From Acidobacteriota bacterium (GTDB lineage: Bacteria > Acidobacteriota > Terriglobia > Acidiferrales > UBA7541), in contig QHYU01000140.1 in assembly GCA_003224235.1 (NCBI GenBank), positions 1-64,000 of the forward strand: DNA of 64,000 bases, given 5' to 3'. Below the pieces are notes generated by a model that saw only the letters and a program-made list of their open reading frames with translations, was not told the origin of the DNA and ran no database searches. Shown in pieces: positions 15,808-45,770 of this stretch (position 1 is its first letter; each line of letters begins with the position of its first letter). The position numbers were made by a program, and so were the translations under genes.

Positions 15808-17070
15808 CTACTTGGGGACTTGCGTCGAAGCCTGGGCCAGCGCGCACAAATCGATCACCAGCTCGCCGGCTTCCACTCGCGAAGGCAAGCGGACGGGGTT
15901 GCATCCCCCCGCGTCGCCGATCGAAGGAACGTAGATCGCCGAGCCGCAGTGCCGGCAGATCACATTGGAGGCGTCTTGGCGGTAGCCGACGGGGCCGCAA
16001 ATCTGGCAGGCATCCAGCGCCGTGCCCCAGCCATTGGGCTTGCGAATCACCAGGAAACGCACGGCGGCGCCTTGAATCTCCACCGTATAAATGTGCAGGT
16101 CCCCGTCGCTCACCTCGGCAAGCGGGATGGCGACGTGCCCGCCCTGCGCCGAGACCAGCCGGGCCTCCGGCGGCGCTGCTTTGACGCGGTCATAAACAAA
16201 ATCGGCGGCCAGCGCCGACACCACTGCCAGGCAGGTGAATGCCGCGGCAAACATCCACCGGCGCTGCTTGCGCCGTTCCCACTCGACCCGGCGGCGCTCC
16301 GCGTCATTAGCCGTGGCGGCGGGCGCGCCGGCCAGCGGAATCGCCAGCCACTCGCGCAAGACCAGCAACGCGGCTGCGCCCAGGATGAAGACAAAGAAGA
16401 AGACATCATTGCGCACGATCGGGCCAACGATTGCCATCTCGCGCTTGCTCGAAGGGATCCACTGCGCCTCGCTAATTTCATGCAGACCTGTCATCGCCAG
16501 CTGAAACGCCACCAGAATCAAGATCGTGCTGGTAGCAGCGAAAAACCGGCCGAGCGGGATCCGCAGCGTGCCCTGGAAGAAAAACAGGCCCACGGCAACA
16601 GCCACGCCCAATCCCAGGCCTGTGCCGATCCAGGTGCCAAGGCCTTCGCTGGACAATTGCACGGCGCGGAGGATCAGCGCCAGTTCTGCGCCCTCGCGGA
16701 GTACCATGAGAAAGACGAATGTTGCCAACCCTATGCCTGCGACTCGCGTGGCCCGCCGGGCGTAGGTTTCTACGCGCTGTTCAATTTCTTTCTTCAGGTG
16801 CCGCGCGACGCGGTTCATCCAAACGATCATGGTGACCACAAAGAAGGCGGCCAGCAGCAGCAGCAGGCCCTCGAAGCCGTCCTGGCTCACTTGCCAGCGC
16901 TCCAGGGCCAAAGAGACTGCGAGGCTGGAGGCCACCGCCATCGCCACGCCGGCCCAGACGTAACGCGCGAGCTGGGGACGAGCAGTGCGGTTCAGATAAA
17001 CGAGGACGATGCCGACGACCAGCGAGGCCTCGACACCTTCGCGCAGGGCGATAAGCAGAGCTGAGAGCAA
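15808..17070 (-). CDS. Ftr1-family iron permease with DUF2318 Cys-rich domain
   Basis: The protein has 420 residues from a TTG start at 17070, with AGGAG seven bases upstream. Residues 1-250 form the Ftr1/Fip1 permease with two REGxE iron-binding motifs, LREGVEA near residue 10 and LREGAEL near 125. After another helix, the C-terminal 140 residues contain DACQICGPVGY and VICRHCGSAIY, the paired CxxC motifs of the DUF2318 domain found on bacterial Ftr1/FetM proteins. It imports iron across the inner membrane. The usual periplasmic partner P19 (FetP) is not in the window. The gene opens the operon and follows a palindrome at 17082-17104. Confidence 0.93.
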   Translation of the reverse strand: MLSALLIALREGVEASLVVGIVLVYLNRTARPQLARYVWAGVAMAVASSLAVSLALERWQVSQDGFEGLLLLLAAFFVVTMIVWMNRVARHLKKEIEQRVETYARRATRVAGIGLATFVFLMVLREGAELALILRAVQLSSEGLGTWIGTGLGLGVAVAVGLFFFQGTLRIPLGRFFAATSTILILVAFQLAMTGLHEISEAQWIPSSKREMAIVGPIVRNDVFFFVFILGAAALLVLREWLAIPLAGAPAATANDAERRRVEWERRKQRRWMFAAAFTCLAVVSALAADFVYDRVKAAPPEARLVSAQGGHVAIPLAEVSDGDLHIYTVEIQGAAVRFLVIRKPNGWGTALDACQICGPVGYRQDASNVICRHCGSAIYVPSIGDAGGCNPVRLPSRVEAGELVIDLCALAQASTQVPK

Positions 17071-17081
17071 CAGGGGTCTCC

Positions 17082-17104
17082 TAGTTGCAACTGAGTTACA
17101 ACTA
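17082..17104. promoter_or_regulatory. Operator-like 23-bp palindrome before the Ftr1 operon
   Basis: The arms TAGTTGCAACT and AGTTACAACTA flank a central G at 17093. Ten of eleven base pairs match; only 88/98 does not. It ends next to the AGGAG ribosome binding site of the Ftr1 gene (one base overlaps) and also lies about 95 bp upstream of the divergent secretin gene. Size and symmetry suit a dimeric winged-helix repressor; the DtxR-like domain encoded in the same operon is the natural candidate. The sequence does not match the classical DtxR box. Confidence 0.65.
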
Positions 17105-17200
17105 CGCTTCCCAGTCTACCTGCCCTGCGAAACTCCGTCAAGGAAATTAGCTCGCTTCGTGTGCACGTCCCGTTACAATACTCTGGAACCCCTGACCGGA

Positions 17201-20068
17201 ATGCGGCGCGCTGGCCAAACTCGCTTTTTCTTCGCTCTGGCGGCTCTCCTGCTGTGGCTGGCGCCCGCGTCGGCGCAGTCCCCAGCTCCGCAGAATTCCC
17301 CTGCCGGCACATCAAAGACGAGAGCAGACCCTCGAAGAGCGAAAAAAGCTTATCAGAAGGGTTTGCGAGCCGAGCAGGCCGAGGATTGGCGCGCCGCGTT
17401 TGACGCCTACTCAGAAGCCGCGGCCTACTCGCCTGGCGACACTGACCTGGTCCTGCGGCGCGAGGCGGCACGCTTCCGGATAGTGCAGCAGCACACGGAC
17501 CGTGCCGAGCGAGAAGCCCTGGCCGGAAGGATGGAGCACGCCCGCGAGGAACTCCGCGCCGCGTTGCAGCTCGACCCAGGCTTCTCGGTGGCGCGCGAAC
17601 GCCTGGCGCAGTTTTCGCCACCAGAGCCGCCGCAAGCGAAGCTGACCCCTTCGCCACTTCCGGGCGGCTCTGAGGCCGAAGCCCCCGTGCAGCTCCAGCC
17701 GCAAGCTGGTACCCGCGACTTCAATCATCGCGGCGACGTCCGCACGGCTTATGAGGACATAGCGCGCCAGTTCGGTGTTGTCGCCTCGTTCGACCCCGAT
17801 CTGCCCGGGCGGCCGGTCCATTTCCGGATAAGGGGCGTGGACTTTGCCACCGCGATGACGGTACTCGGCCAGGAGACCAGAACGTTCTGGAAGGCGCTCG
17901 ACGCTCACGCGTTTTTCGTGGCGGAGAACACTCCCGCCAAGCGGCGCGAGTACGCCCCGGTGATCGTGCGGACGATGCTGCTGTCTGCCGCGACCACGCC
18001 GGAGGGAATGACGGAAACGGTCCGACTGTTGCGCGAGATTGTCGGCATCACCCACGCCGAGCTGGACACGCGCACTCGCACCCTTACCCTGCGCGACTCC
18101 CCCGAAAACGTGGCACTGGCTGTGGCTCTCCTTCAGGAGATCGAACGGGCCCGCGGCGAGCTCATGCTCGAGATCGAAATCCTGGAAGTGGACCGGAACA
18201 TGGCTCGCCAGCTCGGCATCACACCGCCTTCCACCGCACAGGTGATTACCTTCAGCCCCACAGATGTGCGGGCGTTGCGGCAGGCACGGACCACCTCGGA
18301 ACTGCTGGCTATCATCCAGCGCATCTTCGGCACCACGCTGCCACCGCTGATAGCCTTCGGCGGCGGCCAAACAACTTTCTTAGCCACCCTACCCGGCGCG
18401 GCCTCAACTTTCTCAAAAACCCTCAACCTGGTTCGCAGCGGGCGGCGCGTGCTGTTGCGCGCCGAAGAGGGACAGCCGGCCACGTTCTTTGTCGGGGAGC
18501 GTTTTCCCATTGCTCTGGGCGTGCTGGGACCCAGCTTTCTTCCGCCCGCGGCCGGAGCACCCTCGAGCCAGCTCGTCTTTCCCCGAGCCGACTTTCCCAC
18601 CGGCACGAGCCCGGTGGCGGTGGTGGCAGCCAGTTTCAGGACCGGCAATTCCCAACAACTCGACCTCGCCGTGGCTAACAAAACTTCCAACAACGTCTCC
18701 ATCCTGCTGGGCAAACCCGACGGCTCATTCGGAACAAAGACCGACTTCTCCACCGGTGCGACCCCTGTGGCCCTCGTCGCCGGCGATTTCAATGCCGACG
18801 GCAAGCTCGACCTGGCAATCGTCAATCAAGTCGACAAGACGGTCTCCCTCCTGTTGGGACAGGGCGATGGCACGTTCAAGCCGGTGAGCGGAACGCTGCC
18901 TCAGACGGGCAACGGGCCCAGCGCAATCGTCGCCGGCGATTTCAATGCCGACGGCAAGCTGGACCTGGCGGTTGTGAACCAGACAGACAGTACCGTTTCG
19001 ATCTTTCTCGGTAATGGTGACGGGACATTTAAGGCCCGAACAGACATTCCGACCGGCTCCAGTCCGACGGCCCTGGCCGCCAGCGATTTCAATGGCGATG
19101 GCAAGCTGGACTTGGCTGTCGTCAACAAGAATGCCAATACGGTTTCGGTCCTATTAGGCAAGGGCGACGGCACCTTCAACGCAAAGACTGACTTTCCAAC
19201 AGGGAAGGGCCCCGTCGCCATCACTACCGCCGATTTCAACCGCGACGGTCGGGCCGATCTGGCCGTTGCTGATCAGGCCGCCAACACCGTCTCCATCCTG
19301 CTCGGCAAGGGGGACGGCACCTTCAATGCCAAAAACGACTTCAGTACTGGCACGAGTCCCGTCGCGTTGGTTGCCGCGGACTTCAACCTGGACGGCCGGC
19401 TGGACCTGGTGGTTGCTAATCAGGGATCAAATACGATCTCCATCCTGCTGGGCAACGGCGACGGCACCATCGGCCTGCGCGCCGACGTTAACACCGGAAA
19501 CAGCCCCAGCGCTCTCGCGACGGCTGACTTCAATCAAGACAACCGGCCCGACGTAGCCATCATCAACCAGGCAGATAACACCGTTTCCGTGATCTTGAAC
19601 ACGACGACCTTTACTGCCCCAAGCGGCATACCGCAAACTGCATTTCCGGGCGCCGAATACGAAGAGATCGGGCTGAAGGTCCGCGCCACACCGCGAATGC
19701 ACGTTAATAACGAAGTCACGCTTCAGTTGGAATTTGAAATCCGAAGCCTGTCCGGCACGGCAGTCAATGGTATCCCCGTGATTAGCAACCGTACAGTCCA
19801 GCAGACCGTGCGCCTGCGTGAAAACGAACCCGCGGTGCTCTCCGGGATTATCGAGCAAACCGAAACGCGAACCATCTCCGGGTCACCGGGATTCGCCCGC
19901 CTCCCCGGCGTGGGCTATTTGGGCGGGGTACGCAACACTGAGGTACGGGAGACCGAGCTGCTCATCGTCATCACGCCCCGGGCACTGCGCTTGCCATCGC
20001 AGACCCGCCGATCGATCTACGCAGGCCGCGGAGAACCCTCTCCTGGCGGCGCCCGGCCACCCCAGTAG
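17201..20068 (+). CDS. Secretin-like protein carrying a seven-repeat FG-GAP/VCBS propeller
   Basis: The protein has 955 residues from ATG 17201: signal peptide (1-26), TPR-like region (about 35-110), an STN/N0-like domain near 174-245, a NolW-like ring domain near 250-318, and then the secretin barrel (GELMLEIEILEVDRN onward). After VGERFPIALGV a block at about residues 460-803 holds seven repeats of about 49 residues with DFNxDGKLDLAVV cores, expected to form a calcium-binding seven-bladed propeller. The barrel resumes with EYEEIGLKVRATPRMHVNNEVTLQLEFEI and ends ETELLIVITPRAL. It would be an outer-membrane secretin or PilQ/GspD relative with a large loop domain. No other secretion genes are adjacent. 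Confidence 0.87.
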   Translation: MRRAGQTRFFFALAALLLWLAPASAQSPAPQNSPAGTSKTRADPRRAKKAYQKGLRAEQAEDWRAAFDAYSEAAAYSPGDTDLVLRREAARFRIVQQHTDRAEREALAGRMEHAREELRAALQLDPGFSVARERLAQFSPPEPPQAKLTPSPLPGGSEAEAPVQLQPQAGTRDFNHRGDVRTAYEDIARQFGVVASFDPDLPGRPVHFRIRGVDFATAMTVLGQETRTFWKALDAHAFFVAENTPAKRREYAPVIVRTMLLSAATTPEGMTETVRLLREIVGITHAELDTRTRTLTLRDSPENVALAVALLQEIERARGELMLEIEILEVDRNMARQLGITPPSTAQVITFSPTDVRALRQARTTSELLAIIQRIFGTTLPPLIAFGGGQTTFLATLPGAASTFSKTLNLVRSGRRVLLRAEEGQPATFFVGERFPIALGVLGPSFLPPAAGAPSSQLVFPRADFPTGTSPVAVVAASFRTGNSQQLDLAVANKTSNNVSILLGKPDGSFGTKTDFSTGATPVALVAGDFNADGKLDLAIVNQVDKTVSLLLGQGDGTFKPVSGTLPQTGNGPSAIVAGDFNADGKLDLAVVNQTDSTVSIFLGNGDGTFKARTDIPTGSSPTALAASDFNGDGKLDLAVVNKNANTVSVLLGKGDGTFNAKTDFPTGKGPVAITTADFNRDGRADLAVADQAANTVSILLGKGDGTFNAKNDFSTGTSPVALVAADFNLDGRLDLVVANQGSNTISILLGNGDGTIGLRADVNTGNSPSALATADFNQDNRPDVAIINQADNTVSVILNTTTFTAPSGIPQTAFPGAEYEEIGLKVRATPRMHVNNEVTLQLEFEIRSLSGTAVNGIPVISNRTVQQTVRLRENEPAVLSGIIEQTETRTISGSPGFARLPGVGYLGGVRNTEVRETELLIVITPRALRLPSQTRRSIYAGRGEPSPGGARPPQ

Positions 20069-20248: not shown

Positions 20249-21223
20249 TTACGGCTCGGCGTCGAGGACGACGACGGGCTGGTAGGTGCGCGGCACAATG
20301 GCTTCGGCGATGGCGATGAGCTTCTCCTGCTGGCTATAGACGCGCAGCCGCGCCGGCCGCCAGTCGCCGGAATCGAGCACGGCTGGAGCCCCCTGCGCGG
20401 TCGAGACGCGGCCCGGCTGGATCTGAGCGATCGCGACGTTGAATCGAGTACCGTGCCGCACGCGCCGCTCGACGATCGGGAGCACGGTGACGCGCGGCAG
20501 GTCGGTTAAGAGCCGCTCGAGCGGAAGCACCCACTCGGCGAGCCCGGCATTTCTTGCCTCCTGCTCGAGTTCTTCCAATGTGACCGCCTGATCGAGGGTA
20601 AACTCGCCCACGGCGGTGCGCGTGATCTCAGCCAAATGCGCGGCGCAGCCAACCGCTGCTCCCATTTCGTGCGCGATTGAGCGAATGTAGGTGCCTGAGG
20701 CGCACTCAATCTCAAATCGCGCAAACGAGCCTTCCACCCCGGTCAAACGCAACTCATACACTTCCACTTCGACGGGTTTCAATGTGATCGGCTTTTTCTT
20801 GCGGGCCAGTTCGTGGGCCGGGCGACCGTGAATTTTCTTGGCCGAAAAAGGGGGAGGCATCTGTGAGAAACGCCCCACAAATCGCGCAGCTACTCGCTCG
20901 ATCTCGTCGCGACGGAGTTCCGGCGCGGTGTCCGGTCCGAGCGGCTCCCCATCGGCGTCATAGGTGTCGGTCGAGAAGCCGAAGCGCACCGCGCAGGCGT
21001 AGCGCTTGCGCCGACCGGCATAGAATTGTGCCAGCCGCGTGGCCCGGCCCAGCAGAAGCACCAGCACACCTGTCCCTAGCGGATCGAGCGTGCCCAGATG
21101 TCCGATCTGACGGAACCCAGCGATGTGGCGAACGGCTTCGACAACATCGTGTGAGGTTTTGCCTCGCGGCTTGTTGATCACCAGGGCGCCGTCGAACGGC
21201 GCCAGTTGTGGCTTGCGCGGCAC
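20249..21223 (-). CDS. truB: tRNA pseudouridine-55 synthase
   Basis: The protein has 324 residues, full length. It begins DGALVINKPRGKTSHDVV and carries the catalytic-Asp motif GHLGTLDPLGTGVL and the KRYACAVRFG strand of TruB. The C-terminal PUA-like part is present. It modifies U55 in the T-loop of all elongator tRNAs. It is the last gene of the rimP-nusA-infB-ylxP-rbfA-truB operon, starting 42 bp after rbfA. Confidence 0.96.
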   Translation of the reverse strand: MPRKPQLAPFDGALVINKPRGKTSHDVVEAVRHIAGFRQIGHLGTLDPLGTGVLVLLLGRATRLAQFYAGRRKRYACAVRFGFSTDTYDADGEPLGPDTAPELRRDEIERVAARFVGRFSQMPPPFSAKKIHGRPAHELARKKKPITLKPVEVEVYELRLTGVEGSFARFEIECASGTYIRSIAHEMGAAVGCAAHLAEITRTAVGEFTLDQAVTLEELEQEARNAGLAEWVLPLERLLTDLPRVTVLPIVERRVRHGTRFNVAIAQIQPGRVSTAQGAPAVLDSGDWRPARLRVYSQQEKLIAIAEAIVPRTYQPVVVLDAEP

Positions 21224-24797: not shown

Positions 24798-26516
24798 TTA
24801 TTCTTCTTCCTTTCGCGGCTCAGCGGGTTCCGCGGTCTCGTCAGCGGCGTGGACGTCGTGCGCGGCTTCCACTGCGGCTTCGCGTGGTGTCTCCGACGGC
24901 TCCGCGCCAGCTTCTGCCGCCAATTGTTGCTGTGCTTCCTCCACGGACGCAGCGGCCTCAACGCTTTCCTCCCCCGCCTCCCCAGCCGACTGCTCGGGAG
25001 CCTCAGCCAATTCAGCGTCGCCAGCCGGGGCTGCGCTGCTGGCTGCCTCGGCGGGTTCCGCAGTCTCCGACGGTTCCGCGCCAGCTTCTGCCGCCAATTG
25101 TTGCTGTGCCTCCTCCACGGACGCAGCGGCCTCGACGCTTTCCTCCCCCGCCTCCCCAGCCGACTGCTCGGGAGCCTCAGCCAATTCAGCGTCGCCGGCC
25201 GGGGCTGCGCTGCTGGCTGCCTCAGCGCCCTCACTGGATACTGCTGGCTGAGCTTCGGGCGCCTCGAAGTAACTCCGCACTGACTGCTGGATCTTTTCGA
25301 CCATCTTTTCGCCGATGCCCGGAATTTCCATCAACTGCTCAGGGGTCATATCAGCTAGCTTTTCGATCGAAGAGATGCCGTGCGCTTCGATTTTCTCGAT
25401 GGTCTTTGGCCCGACGCCCTTCAGCTCCGAGAGCGGCGTGCCGGGAGCGGTCAGCGCGGCCATTTGCGCTTCAATCTCCTGCCGCTTCTCTTCCTCGCTC
25501 TTGATGTCGATGTTCCACCCGATCAGCTTGCTGGCTAGGCGCACATTCTGCCCCTTCTTGCCAATGGCCAGCGACAACTGCGTATCCTCGACGATCACCT
25601 CTAGGTGCCGCGTCTCGGGATCGACGATTTGCACGCGGGTGACCTTGGCGGGGCTCAGCGCCTTCTGCGCGAAGGTGACGGTGTCCTCGTTGAACGGGAT
25701 GATGTCGATCTTCTCGCCCCGCAATTCGCGGATGATCGACTGCACGCGCATGCCCTTCATCCCCACGCAGGCGCCGACCGGATCCACGTCCTTGTCGCGG
25801 CTCTGCACGGCGATCTTGGTCCGCTCGCCGGCTTCCCGGGCCGCCGCGCGGATCTGTACGGTGCCATCGTAGATTTCCGGGACTTCCATCTCGAACAGCC
25901 GCTGCACCAGCATGGGATCGGCGCGCGACACGATCACCTGGGGGCCTTTCGACGCGCGCTCAACCGCGCGGATCACGACGCGCAGCCGGTCGCCCAAGTT
26001 GTAGGTTTCCAGTCTCGACTGCTCGCGCTTGGGCAAGCGCGCCTCGGTGCGACCCAAGTCCACGATCACGTCCGGGCCTTCGACGCGCTTCACGATGCAG
26101 TTCACCAGCTCGCCCACCCGGCCGTTAAACTCGTTGAAGATGGTGTCGCGCTCGGCCTCGCGCACCTTCTGCATGATCACCTGTTTGGCCGTCTGCGCAG
26201 CGATCCGGCCTAGCACGTCAGTGGGCCTGGCAATCAGAACTTCACCGCCCACCTCCACTGCGGGATTGATCTTGCGGCCCTCAGCTAGGCTCACCTCGCG
26301 TTTCGGGTCGGTCACCTCATCGACCACCGCCCGCACCGCATACACGTCCACCTGGCCGGTCTCCGGGTTGAACTTTGAGCGCATATCCTCTTCGGTCTTG
26401 TAATACTTCCGCGCGGCGACCGCCATGGCGTCTTCAATCGCCGCCACGATGATTTCCGGCTCGATATGCTTTTCCCGGCTGATCTGCTCAATCGCTTGGT
26501 AAAGCAGACTGGCCAT
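24798..26516 (-). CDS. nusA: Transcription termination/antitermination protein NusA
   Basis: The protein has 572 residues: the N-terminal RNA-polymerase-binding domain, S1 and two KH domains (core through about residue 350), a helix-hairpin-helix segment (SELKGVGPKTIEKIEAHGI and LMEIPGIGEKMVEKI) and an acidic, low-complexity tail of about 150 residues. The tail includes a 58-residue tandem duplication (see separate entry). The E. coli protein is 495 residues, with two acidic repeats instead. It lies 12 bp after rimP and 12 bp before infB. Autoregulation through the leader attenuator at 27199-27243 is an inference. Confidence 0.96.
   Translation of the reverse strand: MASLLYQAIEQISREKHIEPEIIVAAIEDAMAVAARKYYKTEEDMRSKFNPETGQVDVYAVRAVVDEVTDPKREVSLAEGRKINPAVEVGGEVLIARPTDVLGRIAAQTAKQVIMQKVREAERDTIFNEFNGRVGELVNCIVKRVEGPDVIVDLGRTEARLPKREQSRLETYNLGDRLRVVIRAVERASKGPQVIVSRADPMLVQRLFEMEVPEIYDGTVQIRAAAREAGERTKIAVQSRDKDVDPVGACVGMKGMRVQSIIRELRGEKIDIIPFNEDTVTFAQKALSPAKVTRVQIVDPETRHLEVIVEDTQLSLAIGKKGQNVRLASKLIGWNIDIKSEEEKRQEIEAQMAALTAPGTPLSELKGVGPKTIEKIEAHGISSIEKLADMTPEQLMEIPGIGEKMVEKIQQSVRSYFEAPEAQPAVSSEGAEAASSAAPAGDAELAEAPEQSAGEAGEESVEAAASVEEAQQQLAAEAGAEPSETAEPAEAASSAAPAGDAELAEAPEQSAGEAGEESVEAAASVEEAQQQLAAEAGAEPSETPREAAVEAAHDVHAADETAEPAEPRKEEE
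24891..25223 (-). repeat. Tandem 174-bp duplication in the nusA tail
   Basis: The segment starting at 24891 recurs starting at 25065 with a shift of exactly 174 bp (58 codons), and the two copies differ at only a few bases. The encoded unit is rich in Ala, Glu and Gly (AGDAELAEAPEQSAGEAG). The small number of differences points to a recent duplication, or ongoing expansion by slipped replication. Confidence 0.9.
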
Positions 26517-45495: not shown

Positions 45496-45756
45496 ATGCC
45501 AAACAACTTAGAACCGAAAGTTGTCTTCGTGCTCGATCTCTCGGAGGCGGAGATTCAGGCAATCGATGGGCATCCCGCTGTCAGGTGGGCGAGCAAGCAG
45601 ATCCTTAAGGCACTCGAGGCTATCACCGGATGGCGGATGCGAATTCCTGAGTCAATTGTGCCCTCAAGCGCAGTCGGCGGATCCTTGCCCCTTCCAGGGA
45701 GCCCTTTTTCTTGTCTCCCATGCTGCCAGACCTTTCTGCTAGCTGCTAGCTGCTAG
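45496..45756 (+). CDS. Small protein of unknown function
   Basis: The protein has 86 residues from ATG 45496, behind an excellent AGGAGG site. The first 50 residues look like a genuine folded segment (KVVFVLDLSEAEIQAIDGH, RWASKQILKALEAITGW). The C-terminal 25 residues are Ser/Cys/Pro-rich and run into a heptanucleotide repeat that supplies the stop codon, so the reading frame is probably truncated or variable at its 3' end. I do not recognise a family. It could be the N-terminal part of a longer gene whose remainder has been lost. Confidence 0.5.
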   Translation: MPNNLEPKVVFVLDLSEAEIQAIDGHPAVRWASKQILKALEAITGWRMRIPESIVPSSAVGGSLPLPGSPFSCLPCCQTFLLAASC

Positions 45757-45770
45757 CTGCTAGCTGCTAG
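45736..45770 (+). repeat. Five tandem copies of CTGCTAG
   Basis: A perfect 7-bp repeat in five copies spans the stop codon of the small gene at 45496. Because seven is not a multiple of three, gain or loss of a unit would change the reading frame and the C-terminus. Confidence 0.9.

Follow-up and report, generated by a model that had tools for sequence, protein, structure and literature searches.

The 64,000-nucleotide window described here (contig C76 of a 4.57-Mb acidobacterial genome) encodes a 955-residue protein (17201..20068, + strand), termed the propeller-secretin below, in which seven FG-GAP repeats interrupt a secretin domain. Taken as a whole, the best explanation is that an integrin-alpha-type propeller has replaced the Gate 1 tip of an outer-membrane secretin and that the propellers form a ring outside the pore, a complete picture that commands about half of our confidence; the architecture and the Gate 1 site, taken by themselves, are very probably correct. 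Secretins are among the largest gated outer-membrane pores, and the opening of Gate 1 is still argued from snapshots of closed and open states. A folded 38-kDa domain carried in this gate across a bacterial family, with close insert-free orthologs, some at the same chromosomal place, provides a natural experiment on the load that Gate 1 can bear, on its orientation, and on its ability to receive an outside signal. The layout appears to be undescribed: no literature joining bacterial 'secretin' and 'FG-GAP' was found, in agreement with an earlier sequence-only reading of this DNA, which knew of no standard secretin so arranged. As far as the literature consulted shows, this would be the first known case of a binding-type domain forming part of a secretin gate, a layout that makes pore gating and outside contact directly testable.

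Domain order and the insertion site

The frame is open without interruption from 17009 to 20068 (+ strand, as are all features of the protein), and its probable start, ATG 17201, is followed by a signal-peptide-like N-terminus (probable signal peptide MRRAGQTRFFFALAALLLWLAPASAQ, 17201..17278, read from the sequence). Next comes a TPR-like helical region (17330..17614), assigned from TPR_19 and TPR_14 matches just under the Pfam cut-off and modeled by AlphaFold2 as helices (residues 44-138; predicted local distance difference test score, pLDDT, about 80). In the periplasmic N-domain region (17711..18157), Secretin_N (PF03958) scores 18 bits against a cut-off of 28.2; the orthologs L153 and L156, at 33 and 36 bits, lie above it. 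The first part of the secretin domain, ending ...VGERFP (18155..18508), is delimited by alignment with insert-bearing and insert-free orthologs, and the second, containing the Gate 2 and lip region (19655..19996), aligns to solved secretins. Pfam Secretin (PF00263) gives one match of 90 bits (E 1e-25; curated score of 27.5 exceeded) at profile positions 28-167, starting at position 28 because the domain start lies before the insert. Assignment of the secretin fold rests on sequence: on Pfam, on NCBIfam secretin models scoring below their cut-offs in the window protein (GspD, TIGR02517, 68.1 of 351 bits; PilQ, TIGR02515, 62.9 of 284; SctC, TIGR02516, 42.4 of 238), and on a profile of insert-free orthologs, which matched RcpA, GspD, and PilQ in the PDB with E values of 2e-16 to 1e-9. 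GspD (type II) and PilQ (type IV pilus) share with the propeller-secretin a secretin domain bearing Gate 1 and Gate 2, but the window protein falls far below their curated cut-offs and lacks their operon partners. The protein presumably still assembles into a ring of at least 12 subunits.

In solved secretins, Gate 1 is a hinged hairpin that extends from the inner barrel and points into the lumen. The best solved match of the insert-free orthologs is RcpA, the Tad-pilus secretin (8odn, E 2e-16), which has the same secretin fold. The RcpA letters in the alignment ('GGEFPIPVPNGTNDNVTIEYKEFGI', numbered from residue 212) put the P of 'EFP' at 241 and the Y of 'EYKEFG' at 256, and the window protein reads 'GERFP-IALG...propeller...AE-YEEIGL', with motifs common to both ('VGERFPIALG' at 18491-18520, 'EYEEIGLKV' from 19655). 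By this alignment, in which HMMER sets the first shared motif a few columns off and aligns the second directly, the propeller is located in the Gate 1 tip, between the residues that bound the disordered RcpA Gate 1 tip. That tip comprises 14 disordered residues in RcpA versus about 380 residues in the propeller-secretin. RcpA also differs in having a VirB9-like N-domain, in working with Tad genes, and in relying on a separate TPR protein, TadD, as pilotin, whereas the TPR region is fused to the secretin here. The sequence-only reading had placed the insert in an outer-membrane channel loop; the site is the Gate 1 tip and no surface loop. Its phrase 'gating module' gains a more literal sense from this site, while surface exposure is suggested by the space constraints considered below. 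Linkers connect insert and hairpin on both sides: an N-terminal Gate 1 stalk from FP436 to the first propeller residue (18509..18568; orthologs have 20-34 residues from the end of the N-part profile to repeat 1) and a C-terminal linker from the last propeller strand to EYEEIG (19613..19654).

Pfam FG-GAP_3 matches seven stretches of the window protein (228 bits, E 1e-68), and Pfam and the orthologs together bear out the claim that seven FG-GAP repeats split the secretin domain. A repeat profile delimits repeat 1 (18602..18754, degenerate core SFRTGNSQQLDLAV); profile and repeat comparison together delimit repeats 2 (18755..18907, DFNADGKLD), 3 (18908..19054, DFNADGKLD), 4 (19055..19201, DFNGDGKLD), 5 (19202..19348, DFNRDGRAD), 6 (19349..19495, DFNLDGRLD), and 7 (19496..19627, DFNQDNRPD). 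The DFNxDGKLDLAVV cores reported earlier for all seven hold for six, as DFNxDG/N; repeat 1 is degenerate in the window protein and canonical in relatives. Likeness among repeats 1-6 is only 47-74%, so the array is no recent tandem expansion; a tandem repeat finder gave no report across the insert.

Structure prediction, which the sequence-only reading had itself named as a check on its closed seven-bladed propeller, supports that fold. Two AlphaFold2 runs on three sequences each (window protein, L004, L005) gave a confident propeller, with pLDDT values mostly of 75-94 in run one and of about 80-96 in run two. The predicted propeller (residues 457-804; 18569..19612) agrees to about ten bases with the 18580-19611 originally proposed. 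In VIA-align 2 it matches integrin alpha propellers with Z 34-37, the best being that of integrin alphaIIb (Z 36.7, 2.2 Å, 319 residues). In the Foldseek list for the window model, the BBSome and KICSTOR propellers stand on top and LGI1 is also present. The structure searches returned propellers only, the remainder of the model being weak, and this says nothing against the secretin fold. The insert is accordingly modeled as a closed seven-bladed propeller of integrin-alpha type. It shares with the integrin alpha chain the seven blades, FG-GAP repeats, and DxDxDG loops, but at 12-16% identity, and the integrin propeller is located at the receptor N-terminus rather than in a pore gate. Six DxDxDG-type loops (repeats 2-7) make calcium binding likely. 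The CV39L-type lectin model (NF052350) scores 19 bits against an equivalog cut-off of 350, which leaves the earlier label 'lectin-like' without support.

Conservation and descent of the insert

With the N-terminal part as query against 61 genomes, from which the loci were then fetched, 30 intact insert-bearing orthologs were collected (the window and L004 counted), spanning 12 of the 13 genera of one acidobacterial family from soil. With the repeat profile, each of the 30 shows seven repeats, at the same insertion site (one extra negative-score match in L134 was disregarded), which rules out an assembly or tandem-repeat artefact and chance. The gap between the scaffold parts measures 364-422 residues in 29 orthologs and 585 in L151 (5746-9597), whose propeller contains a pair of He_PIG Ig-like domains inserted between repeats 3 and 4; nested Ig-like domains are usual in exposed proteins. 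Three further orthologs stand outside the intact set: L146 runs off its contig, and L130 and L158, from two genomes of one genus, are split by apparent frameshifts, reflecting sequencing error or decay. A 20-residue loop occupies the insert site in the genus g11 (two genomes, L152 and L153), and 21-26 residues do so in the nine outgroup orthologs of the tree, which come from other families. In a draw of 297 genomes from the phylum, the full layout occurred, among the matches listed, only in the window's own genome, and scans of viral contigs yielded no relatives.

Mean identity is 43% for the insert and 48% for the scaffold, with r 0.76; by this measure the insert is under constraint nearly equal to that on its host protein. 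The rate at which the insert evolves, and the way it tracks the scaffold, rule out a recent mobile acquisition. Scaffold-only maximum-likelihood trees recover the family as one clade (98/98), on which the distribution of the insert takes a gain plus a loss in g11, two changes in all. Placing g11 as the first branch would remove the need for a loss at a small likelihood cost (approximately unbiased test, p 0.21). The Gate 1 tip was probably replaced by the propeller once in the ancestry of the family. The insert-free outgroups L159, flanked by truB and, on the opposite side, by the FTR1 cluster described below, and L161, with the FTR1 side, share the neighbors of the propeller-secretin gene, so the propeller entered a resident gene.

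Placement of the propellers

Each propeller (38 kDa, 348 residues) occupies about 46,000 cubic Å. Twelve to 17 copies, or 556,000-787,000 cubic Å, would take up 118-167 Å in a lumen with a width of 90 Å (PMC8563730), and a ring of 13, at an assumed width of 40 Å each, would measure about 207 Å across. Since 12-17 propellers exceed the known lumen, they should lie outside the pore, unless the ring is unlike known ones. The same volumes bear on the idea that the insert is a plug, with a few propellers in the lumen keeping the pore shut until displaced. The plug domain of the FimD and PapC ushers, folded within a barrel hairpin, is a precedent, and the insert does sit in the pore-closing hairpin, but every subunit carries a propeller and the full set overruns the lumen; a plug is quite unlikely.

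A surface crown is favored because Gate 1 opens upward. The propellers would form a ring on the extracellular face, held on Gate 1 linkers of about 14-20 residues or more, with Gate 1 swung up or tethered and Gate 2 left to form the inner constriction. The C-terminal strands are intact and well conserved, as is the Gate 2 region (NGIPxxSNR). We judge such a crown on Gate 1 stalks to have about an even chance of being correct. The crown of Thermus thermophilus PilQ, which consists of 13 spikes that rise about 40 Å on the extracellular side and has been implicated in DNA uptake (PMC5745081), is a precedent showing that secretins can carry a ring of this kind on top; it differs in being a separate protein, then unidentified, whereas the crown proposed here would belong to the secretin polypeptide itself, within Gate 1. 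In that position, calcium-loaded propellers might capture a ligand, a substrate, or a surface beside the pore, and through tension on the Gate 1 hinges such binding could favor the open or the closed state. A ligand-gated secretin of this type, with an external calcium-dependent propeller tied to each Gate 1 and binding that opens or closes the pore, is a doubtful proposition at present.

The propellers could instead be periplasmic, below Gate 1, acting as a substrate-recruiting or sealing ring with no surface crown. FG-GAP proteins occupy a variety of locations, either direction is within reach of the linkers, and the propeller-secretin apparently has a smaller number of N-domain rings than GspD, possibly leaving room below. 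Solved N3 rings, however, leave 74-96 Å (PMC8563730, PMC12114550), too narrow for at least 12 propellers abreast, and the Ig-like domains nested in the L151 propeller fit exposure; a periplasmic ring is accordingly unlikely.

Several points weigh against the surface-crown explanation. The secretin half of both AlphaFold2 models, the base of the Gate 1 hairpin with it, is of low confidence (pLDDT mostly below 50), because only three sequences were usable for alignment. The ring could also have fewer subunits. One genus of the family, g11, lives without the insert, and no type II or type IV machine partner genes adjoin the propeller-secretin gene. The last observation would also suit a protein that is no longer a pore at all, a surface-anchored adhesin using the secretin domain as its anchor, as would the scores well short of the cut-offs for GspD and PilQ and the two other secretins of the window's genome, which serve secretion or pilus machines. 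Against this stand the well-conserved secretin C-half (48% mean identity over the family) and the intact Gate 2 and C-terminal strands, and an adhesin of this sort is distinctly improbable.

One further TPR-secretin of the same genome (contig C137, L166:6120-8471) lies beside a pseudopilin-like gene and carries at its C-terminus a cohesin-like domain (PF00963; 22 bits, slightly below the cut-off).

Genomic neighborhood

The divergent neighbor of the propeller-secretin gene encodes an FTR1 iron permease with a fused FtrD-like domain (15808..17070, - strand; PF03239 and PF10080), and the convergent neighbor is truB (20249..21223, - strand; PF01509), followed by rbfA, infB, and nusA. Both neighbors are conserved: in most genomes a divergent cluster of the FTR1-FtrD permease, two MacB/FtsX-like permeases, and an ABC ATPase lies on one side and truB-rbfA-infB-nusA on the other, in insert-bearing and insert-free loci alike. 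The FTR1 cluster resembles iron-uptake systems of the Campylobacter p19 / FtrABCD type. L152 and L153, which have no propeller, also lack the FTR1/MacB/ABC cluster beside the secretin; the propeller is retained in other genomes without the cluster, and the link is therefore loose.

The divergent intergenic region contains, upstream of FTR1, an inverted repeat conserved in many relatives, AGTTG-N11-CAACT (17083..17103), which is probably an iron operator. Only two other sites in the genome match it exactly, and their inner letters differ; contig C45 (L181) has two near-copies immediately downstream of a gene identified by eye as a Fur-like regulator. Where FTR1 has moved 1-5 kb away (L135, L143, L145, L157), the repeat stays with FTR1; L139 has the repeat, with FTR1 not detected. 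This behavior argues against a shared operator tying the secretin to iron uptake. The repeat speaks for regulation of FTR1 and hardly of the secretin, and no claim is therefore made that the secretin serves iron uptake. Matches to the E. coli consensus for a Fur-type box near the start are at chance level, and PADLOC gave no anti-phage defense match. Elsewhere in the window, a 174-base unit is present in 1.9 copies at 96% within the nusA frame (24889-25227), and CTGCTAG occurs in five perfect copies at 45736-45770.
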